DNA of 64,000 nt. Origin: an uncultured bacterium (GTDB lineage: Bacteria > Cyanobacteriota > Vampirovibrionia > Gastranaerophilales > Gastranaerophilaceae). Of the stretch, positions 36,376-45,901 are shown piece by piece (within the stretch, counting starts at the first letter, position 1; each line of letters starts with the position of its first letter). Below the pieces are notes generated by a model. The model saw nothing but the letters and a program-made list of their open reading frames with translations. It was not told the DNA's origin and searched no databases. The stretch covers positions 1-64,000 of the forward strand of contig CACWLL010000010.1 of the NCBI GenBank assembly GCA_902761735.1. Reading direction: 5' to 3'. The position numbers and the translations under genes were made by a program.

Positions 36376-37854
36376 ATGTATAAAAACAACAAAATGCAAT
36401 ACGTTATCAAAACATGTTCAAGTGAAAATTCTCAAGAACTTCAAGATATGCTAAACGAAATGTCTATGAACGGATGGGAATTATATAGCATGACAGAAAT
36501 AGAAACAGACGAAGGATTTAAGTATAATTGCATATTTATGTCTGAACAAACTTCAGAGGATGACAAAAATTCAGGAGATGTTATCAATATAGCATCATTT
36601 AAGAGTCAGATGGAAAAAATGCTTTCCCCTGAACTTAACCCGTATGAGAATTGTATTGATATTCAATCAAAAATAGCGAATCAACAGCAAAAAATCTCAA
36701 AAATCAAATCCGAGTTGGAAAGAGAAGCTCCGGCATCAGTTAACAGAAAAAGATTAAATGATAAAATTTCTGCCGGATTAAGAGATTTGGATGAATTAAG
36801 ACATCGTCTCACTAAAGCCACCTCGCCTGATATAATGTTCTCCCGCTTAAAAGAGGATAAATTATCAATTAATTTGAGTGAAGAATTATTGGATTATGTT
36901 GATTCTGAAAAAGATTTTTCGGAAGATGATTTGGTAGCATCAACCGTTAAAGCTCGTTTAAAATTAACGGATGAATACGGATATGTATTACCAAAAGTTG
37001 TATTTAAGGATGATGAAACCTTAAATCCTTATGAATTTTCAATCAAGATAAGAGGGGTTGAGGTTCATAAATCGTGTGTTTATCCCGCATATTCCATGTT
37101 TTTTGCAGAAGATTTACATTTAGAGAAAAAACCTAAAGATGCAATTTATGATATTGATGCAATTACCGGCAAAAAAATTATATGGCTTGAAAAATCCCAA
37201 ACTAAAGATTTTTGGGAAAGAGGTATCTCCGGTTCTGATTATATTACAAGAATGTTGGAATTCTACGCCGTAAAATACGTTGATGATTTGCTTGACTATA
37301 CGGAAGTTAGAAAATATATAGAAGTTGTAGATAGAGTAAATCCGTTTCTTGTTGAAAATTTAATTCCGGATTATGTTACAGAAGCTGATTTGAAATTCAT
37401 ATTATCGAGTTTGATAAAAGAAAAAATTTCGGTTAAAGATATAGTTTATTTATTTGAAAAACTAAACGATTTTGCAGATGATTGTCCGAAATCGGAACTG
37501 CTAAAAAAACTCAGACTTTCCATTGCAAAACAAATATGCTCAAAATATGCAAACGAAGAAGGCATTATCTCCGCCTTTGAAATGAGTGACAAAACCATAG
37601 AAGAATTTGTTCCGAGTTTTGATGAAAACGACGCATATGTGGTAACTGTTGATGGAGAATTTGCGGAAAAGTTGGCAAAGAAAGTTCAACGTAAAGCAAA
37701 ACAATTAAATATAGATAATCCGATAATCATTGTTCCTATGGAATTTCAGCATTTAGTTTCCGCTTTATTATCTAATTATTTGAATAATATATCGGTAATT
37801 ACACACGAAGAAATAGGTTGTAATTATAGAATTGAAACTCTTGCAGAAATTTAG
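36376..37854 (+). CDS. Soluble orphan FlhA-type (FHIPEP) cytosolic domain protein
   Basis: A 492-residue protein without any membrane segment. Residues 1-60 resemble a DUF4177-like small domain (NGWELYSMTEIETDEGFKYNCIFM), residues 70-150 are helical linker, and residues about 170-490 match the cytoplasmic part of the flagellar/type III export gate FlhA/SctV. Landmarks in order are KLTDEYGYVLPKVVFKDD, PYEFSIKIRGVEV, GKKIIWL, an FHIPEP-like stretch with FLVENLIPDYVTEADLKFIL and EKISVKDIVYLFEKLNDFA, then LRLSIAKQICSKYANEEG. Normal FlhA has eight N-terminal membrane helices, entirely absent here. AGGGA precedes the ATG. The neighbours are deoA and a glucanotransferase, not flagellar genes. The homology is strong; the role is unknown. 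Confidence 0.85.
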   Translation: MYKNNKMQYVIKTCSSENSQELQDMLNEMSMNGWELYSMTEIETDEGFKYNCIFMSEQTSEDDKNSGDVINIASFKSQMEKMLSPELNPYENCIDIQSKIANQQQKISKIKSELEREAPASVNRKRLNDKISAGLRDLDELRHRLTKATSPDIMFSRLKEDKLSINLSEELLDYVDSEKDFSEDDLVASTVKARLKLTDEYGYVLPKVVFKDDETLNPYEFSIKIRGVEVHKSCVYPAYSMFFAEDLHLEKKPKDAIYDIDAITGKKIIWLEKSQTKDFWERGISGSDYITRMLEFYAVKYVDDLLDYTEVRKYIEVVDRVNPFLVENLIPDYVTEADLKFILSSLIKEKISVKDIVYLFEKLNDFADDCPKSELLKKLRLSIAKQICSKYANEEGIISAFEMSDKTIEEFVPSFDENDAYVVTVDGEFAEKLAKKVQRKAKQLNIDNPIIIVPMEFQHLVSALLSNYLNNISVITHEEIGCNYRIETLAEI

Positions 37855-45139: not shown

Positions 45140-45901
45140 ATGTTTTCAGAAATGATACAAAGTTTGTTGAATAGCGGCGGTCAAACCGAAGCGATGAAGC
45201 GATATAGTTCTATGACTAATCAAGTCAATAGTATAAAACATAAGCTTCAATCTCCGGTTAATCAGCAGGTATCTGCAAATCCCATGGATACAATCTATCC
45301 TGCCGGCAAACCCGTAAACGGGTTTGAAAGTATTCTTCAGTCTTCTCAACCGGCTAACTTTGGGAATATGCTTTTAAACAAAGCCTCAATGAATGTAAAT
45401 GCTCAAATAGTAAATAAGGAATCCGTAACCCCTACAATAGAAAATTCAATTCGTTCATATTCTGCCGATAACTCGGTTGCACAGGCTATGGCTATTATGC
45501 AAAATAGCCAGAATACAACTGCGAATAAATCTCAAATTTTGGATATGGTAGATCAAATTTCGGAAAAACACGGGGTGGACAGCCGTCTTGTTAAGGCACT
45601 TATAAAACAAGAATCGGGTTTTAACCCGAATGCAAAATCAAAAGCAGGAGCCATGGGGTTAATGCAATTAATGCCGTCAACTGCAAAAAGTCTTGGCGTC
45701 AACAATCCGTATAGTCCTGTTCAAAATGTTGAAGGCGGAGTAAAATATTTAAAATCAATGCTCAACAAATACAATGGTAATATTATTTTGGCATTGGCAG
45801 CATATAATGCAGGCCCTGGAGCCGTTGATAAATATTCCGGCGTTCCGCCTTACAAAGAAACCCAAAATTACGTAAAGAATATTTTGGCTAATTATCTGTA
45901 A
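45140..45901 (+). CDS. Lytic transglycosylase (SLT domain), no signal peptide
   Basis: A 253-residue protein with a C-terminal SLT lytic transglycosylase domain (about 133-253) that would cleave peptidoglycan. Hallmarks: [14 protein letters not shown] with catalytic Glu158, [29 protein letters not shown], and [13 protein letters not shown]. The N-terminal 130 residues are polar, Ser/Asn/Gln-rich and start [14 protein letters not shown] without a Sec signal peptide. AGGGTAGAG upstream supports this start. The missing signal recalls transglycosylases delivered by specialised secretion or phage systems. Its end overlaps the convergent umuC gene by 14 bases. Confidence 0.88.

Follow-up and report, generated by a model that had tools for sequence, protein, structure and literature searches.

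A membrane-free FlhA cytosolic domain (FlhA-C) with an N-terminus of its own is encoded in a window of 64,000 nucleotides (contig CACWLL010000010.1 of assembly GCA_902761735.1) from an uncultured member of the Gastranaerophilales. This FlhA-C paralogue is conserved across the order. I propose, with a probability of roughly one half, that it is fixed in conformation and serves as an accessory subunit on the cytosolic side of System 1, the flagellar-family export set whose full-length FlhA is called FlhA1 here; System 2 denotes a separate flagellum with FlhA2. FlhA/SctV is one of the membrane parts that define type III export, and the opening and closing of its cytosolic ring are debated. The paralogue is referred to as the orphan, a name from the earlier note that is apt only locally: a full-length FlhA (FlhA1) lies on another contig (C2), and the genome has a full export apparatus. 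The coordinates are collected in Table 1. The names of the two adjoining genes, deoA and a glucanotransferase gene, are as given in the earlier note.

Table 1. Features of the window and related loci (L, locus; C, contig; f3, a family of the order).
Feature	Position	Strand	Description and basis
Soluble FlhA-C paralogue (orphan)	36376..37854	+	492 aa, ATG start; Pfam, NCBIfam, AlphaFold2, Foldseek
Beta-alpha-beta-beta domain, residues 6-58	36391..36549	+	AlphaFold2 model, orthologue alignment
Predicted helical hairpin, helices 89-115 and 122-148	36640..36819	+	Replaces membrane domain; AlphaFold2, pLDDT about 81-88
FlhA linker equivalent, residues 149-160	36820..36855	+	Residue alignment
FlhA-C domains D1-D4, residues 161-492	36856..37851	+	Pfam, Foldseek, fold Z, alignment
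Ser168 codon	36877..36879	+	Site of E. coli/Salmonella FlhA Gly368 (GYXLI); alignment
Lytic transglycosylase (SLT)	45140..45901	+	Homologue of the copy that System 1 operons of relatives carry between flgC and fliE
System 1 fliE-fliF-X-fliH-flhA	G000:C2:106774-113014		
System 1 sctQ-fliO-fliP-fliQ-fliR	C4 (L071:8996-12725)		
System 1 flgG2-flgG1-flgB-flgC	C14 (L093:10196-12452)		
System 1 flhB	C1:106510-107535		
f3 gene downstream of the orphan	L075:5047-5877, L080:6635-7546, L082:11234-12157, L083:7737-8609		

The earlier note had claimed that the protein carries the whole FlhA/SctV cytosolic region, and this was borne out. In Pfam, residues 144-481 correspond to positions 321-653 of the 657 positions of the FHIPEP profile (E 1.1e-44; 153.5 bits, far above the cut-off of 29.1). 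The match covers the cytosolic half only; the membrane domain, with about eight helices and the FHIPEP segment, is absent. The best full-length family in NCBIfam is FlhA, which matches residues 148-492 at 143.7 bits, against a full-length cut-off of 772. Solved FlhA-C structures, among them 3mix, were matched by the sequence (phmmer, E 5.5e-24 for 3mix). An AlphaFold2 model made from 39 orthologues (pLDDT 82.6) has FlhA-C as its top Foldseek match (E 1.6e-21), and its comparison with the FlhA nonamer chain 7amy gave a Z of 29.7 over 339 residues (rmsd 3.0). Both the profile search and the monomer prediction, which had been proposed as checks, thus point to FlhA-C. The hydropathy is everywhere too low for a membrane helix (maximum over 19 residues of 1.14 versus 2.85 for FlhA1), as had been expected. 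It was also correctly noticed that a small N-terminal domain and a helical linker stand in place of the membrane part; in the model these are the domain of residues 6-58 and, after a low-confidence stretch (residues 60-85), the hairpin of residues 89-148.

In the orthologue alignment, few parts of the orphan are as well conserved as the N-terminal domain, in which L26, N27, M29, W34, Y37, E41, C52, I53, and F54 are invariant. Its likeness to DUF4177, suggested in the earlier note, is weak: the E values are from 3e-4 to 3.5e-3, the scores of 18-21 bits are under the Pfam cut-off of 25, and matches at E <= 0.01 were obtained for only 7 of the 39 orthologues. No further copy of the domain was found elsewhere in 18 genomes. 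I also considered the hairpin as a mimic of FliJ. At E <= 0.01, the 39 members gave no match to FliJ (PF02050) in a search that separates coiled coils poorly, and nothing beyond general coiled-coil matches favoured such a mimic.

The residues of the gate were compared in E. coli numbering. Of 16 orphans, 15 have Ser at the site of Gly368 and one has Thr, while all FlhA1 and FlhA2 sequences sampled have Gly there. In Salmonella, a Gly368-to-Cys change in the GYXLI switch blocks the opening at 42 degrees (PMC9431611). At the chaperone dimple, the position of F459 is occupied by T, S, N, K, or L in the orphans and T490 is variable, with D456 retained in 14 of 16; the dimple is eroded. Since F459, T490, and Gly368 are not retained, the idea of a chaperone-docking platform, one of the readings in the earlier note, is weakened. 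FlhA1 of the order retains G368, D456, an aromatic residue at 459, and T490, and thus can act as a conventional gate. In the orphan linker, P151 is present in all 16 sequences and M154 in 13 of them, the same residues as in FlhA1. D1 and D3 are the best retained domains and D2 and D4 the least, with domain borders that I take to be those of the FlhA-C literature. It is known that the FlhA/SctV ring linker (W354 region) docks on the adjoining subunit (PMC8213127).

Is the orphan common in the Gastranaerophilales? Orthologues were found in 52 of 56 genomes of the order (absent from G007, G013, G014, and G053). In a larger sample, the orphan is present in 143 of 144 genomes, counted manually from the match table with the order genomes giving any FHIPEP-type match as the denominator; G013 alone lacks it. 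It is absent from 18 genomes of sister orders and families of the class, in which the N-terminal half is left uncovered by every match; FlhA frames of about 700 aa account for nearly all of these matches, and shorter frames or fragments for the others. An unchanged architecture of 480-500 aa is shared by well over 100 genomes, the orphans group in a single clade (support 100/100), and the dN/dS values of close pairs, 0.02-0.08, indicate purifying selection. In the tree, the orphan evolves faster than FlhA1. A phage origin was considered and dropped; no relatives of the orphan were found in phage records or viral contigs. Among open-licence papers, I found no account of a soluble FlhA-C gene or of a second export system in Gastranaerophilales, so that the protein, conserved across the order, is undescribed within that literature. 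Two flhA genes are among the 13 flagellar genes common to four Melainabacteria in Di Rienzi et al. 2013 (PMC3787301), and one of them may be the orphan.

These results bear on the possibility that the gene is a decaying remnant or an assembly artefact of a normal flhA, which is hardly credible. A few genomes (G016 and G029) do contain short FlhA-C fragments, and nothing of the kind was found for the orphan gene. The constant architecture stands against a remnant, and an intact full-length FlhA is encoded separately in the same genome. Together with the presence in 143 of 144 genomes, the single clade and the low dN/dS therefore rule out decay, and a frameshifted or relic flhA, the refutation foreseen in the earlier note, is likewise ruled out.

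System 1 of the window's genome is spread over four contigs (Table 1). No flagellin was found in this genome, nor any FliM/FliN besides the SctQ-like protein, nor a match of FlgE length among rod and hook proteins. System 1 is thus a second flagellar-family export apparatus with no detected hook or filament. It has FlgB, FlgC, and two FlgG-like rod proteins, unlike an injectisome, which has a secretin and needle but no flagellar rod. System 1 occurs in both flagellated and non-flagellated Gastranaerophilales, and a related FlhA is also present in the sister families f9, f14, and f15. In flagellated relatives, for example G039, System 1 is accompanied by a distinct flagellar set that includes FlgB, FlgC, FliE, FliF, FliH, FliI, FliP/Q/R, FlhB, and FlhA2 of its own; in the genomes tested, FlgE-length matches occur only in flagellated members. 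System 1 FlhA falls below the NCBIfam FlhA cut-off of 772.1 (695.5), while FlhA2 lies above it (851.5). Soo et al. 2014 (PMC4040986) described the partial flagellar sets of non-motile Gastranaerophilales as incomplete, non-functional flagella, and the flagellar genes have also been read as undergoing reduction (PMC3787301).

The fliG position of System 1 is occupied by a 356-aa all-helical protein, X (L044:1707-2777 in G000, with homologues elsewhere), for which there was neither a family match nor a confident structural match. The name FliG was withheld, because FliG_C matches only at E 0.09 and the best Foldseek E is 0.23. The N-domain of X is also found by itself (187 aa, G039) and, in G016 (L060:3621-4604), attached to membrane-like segments. 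Extra FlhA-C copies were seen at L061:8216-10123 (G002), L062:9042-10823 (G024), and L098:9972-10979 (G046). Those of G002 and G024 start with the X N-domain and group with System 1 FlhA in the tree. All three were rejected as further soluble copies, as their hydropathy indicates membrane-like segments.

Which system does the orphan serve? It is kept in genomes that have no flagellin, FliM/FliN, FlgE, FlhA2, or second FliF, where System 1 remains. Because it is retained where the flagellum is gone, the orphan most likely serves System 1. The sequences point the same way: identity is about 30% to System 1 FlhA versus about 22% to FlhA2, with 28% versus 12% in the linker block and 36% versus 26% in D3. 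In a tree with E. coli FlhA, a branch supported at 88/83 sets the orphans and System 1 FlhA apart from the rest; as the orphan branch is long, this placement is moderate evidence. Several observations weigh against the link. No conserved neighbourhood joins the orphan to System 1, and its sole flagellar linkage is to hook genes, part of the flagellated state. G235 and G009 have the orphan while neither FlhA1 nor FliF was found, which may be due to assembly gaps. Statistically, the co-occurrence means little, since the orphan and System 1 are each found in nearly every genome of the order. In sister orders and in G013, System 1 FlhA is present but the orphan is not; thus, the orphan is an add-on.

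As for the gene neighbourhood, the co-directional order bamA-skp-deoA-orphan-malQ is found in close genera. In other genera the orphan is located elsewhere, away from export genes in most genomes, and the search for conserved neighbours, which the earlier note had proposed, gave no operon partner across the order. In the genus g28 (G039 and G044), the orphan lies directly upstream of fliJ-fliK-flgD-flgE, a linkage seen in no other genus examined. In family f3, a gene of about 280-310 aa follows the orphan on its 3' side at four loci examined (Table 1); one copy was scanned and had no Pfam match. According to the earlier note, flagellar and secretion genes are absent from the 64 kb. This is contradicted by the transglycosylase of the window, which is of the System 1 type (phmmer E from 1e-59 to 4e-53 against the operonic copies) and lies apart from the System 1 operon in this genome. 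It was rejected as a conserved neighbour of the orphan, because it is not near the orphan in other loci of the same genus, where 10 kb downstream was covered.

A conformationally fixed accessory to the FlhA1 cytosolic ring is favoured over a classical chaperone platform. A paralogue of the FlhA cytosolic ring would have lost the membrane domain and gained the N-terminal domain and the helical hairpin. The orphan may then form a homo-ring beneath the FlhA1 cytosolic ring or be a partner of that ring, with its linker anchor PxxM docking, possibly, on the D1/D2 groove of an FlhA1 subunit. It would be held in one conformation, and the N-terminal module could recruit, or attach the orphan to, another factor. 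A bolder version, which I put forward tentatively and regard as possible rather than probable, is a two-component gate ring in which a switchable membrane FlhA is combined with a soluble, switch-less FlhA-C bearing a docking module, in a hookless and filamentless machine.

The orphan might instead be a regulatory decoy that draws chaperone-substrate complexes away from membrane FlhA, or competes for its ring interface, and so throttles System 1 or flagellar export. The missing membrane domain, the retained features of the ring body and linker, the faster evolution relative to FlhA1, and the location away from export genes in most genomes would all suit a decoy. Titration of chaperones is hard to reconcile with the degraded dimple (F459 and T490), however, and a near-universal gene with dN/dS < 0.1 is more constrained than a dispensable regulator needs to be; I regard a decoy as unlikely, if worth keeping in mind. 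It is rather improbable that the FlhA-C fold has been exapted outside secretion, for example as a scaffold or sensor defined by the N-terminal domain. Such a role would fit with the unconserved linkage to export genes, with the loss of Gly368 and of the dimple, with the well-kept N-terminal domain, and with the shared direction of the gene and bamA-skp-deoA-malQ in close relatives. On the other hand, the linker anchor and D1/D3 have stayed more similar to System 1 FlhA than would be required of a scaffold released from secretion, and the species range is limited to an order with near-universal System 1.

The linkage in g28 raises the further question of whether the orphan is a hook or rod-hook export part of the System 2 flagellum, such as a substrate-specificity factor or a partner of FliJ/FliK. 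Most carriers in its own family are without flagellin, FliM/FliN, and FlhA2, those tested are without FlgE, the linkage is missing in every other genus examined, and the orphan is more like System 1 FlhA; a System 2 role is thus quite improbable. Among the readings left from the earlier note, part of an unrecognised assembly looks closest, because the probable host is an export apparatus with no detected hook or filament; the decoy also stands.

Compared with FlhA-C of the flagellar gate, the orphan shares the fold, D1-D4, about 20% identity to solved structures, and the mostly retained D456. It differs from FlhA in having no membrane domain or FHIPEP segment, in its new N-terminal domain and hairpin, and in the substitutions at Gly368, F459, and T490. 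The SctV/YscV cytosolic domain also shares the fold (Z about 22-28), but its sequence match is weaker (NCBIfam hrcV 86.9 bits versus 143.7 for FlhA), and the orphan is again set apart by its missing membrane domain. The short membrane FlhA variants of G002 and G024 resemble the orphan as extra FlhA-C proteins with a different N-terminus; unlike the orphan, they have the X N-domain and strongly hydrophobic segments and belong to the System 1 FlhA group. For the apparatus as a whole, the nearest likeness is with the Myxococcales "Myxo" NF-T3SS of Abby and Rocha 2012 (PMC3459982). As in System 1, its export genes are conserved, derive from the flagellum, and lack the parts for motility, and the set was formerly taken for a relic; no soluble FlhA-C is mentioned in the available part of that account. 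System 1, compared with the "Myxo" set as described there, retains the rod proteins FlgB, FlgC, and two FlgG-like proteins.

An order-wide, membrane-free FlhA-C without the switch glycine provides a separation-of-function case that has arisen in nature, and it directs interest to the export set that the orphan probably serves. The partial flagellar genes of the non-motile members constitute a strongly conserved second export system, which coexists with the flagellum in flagellated members.
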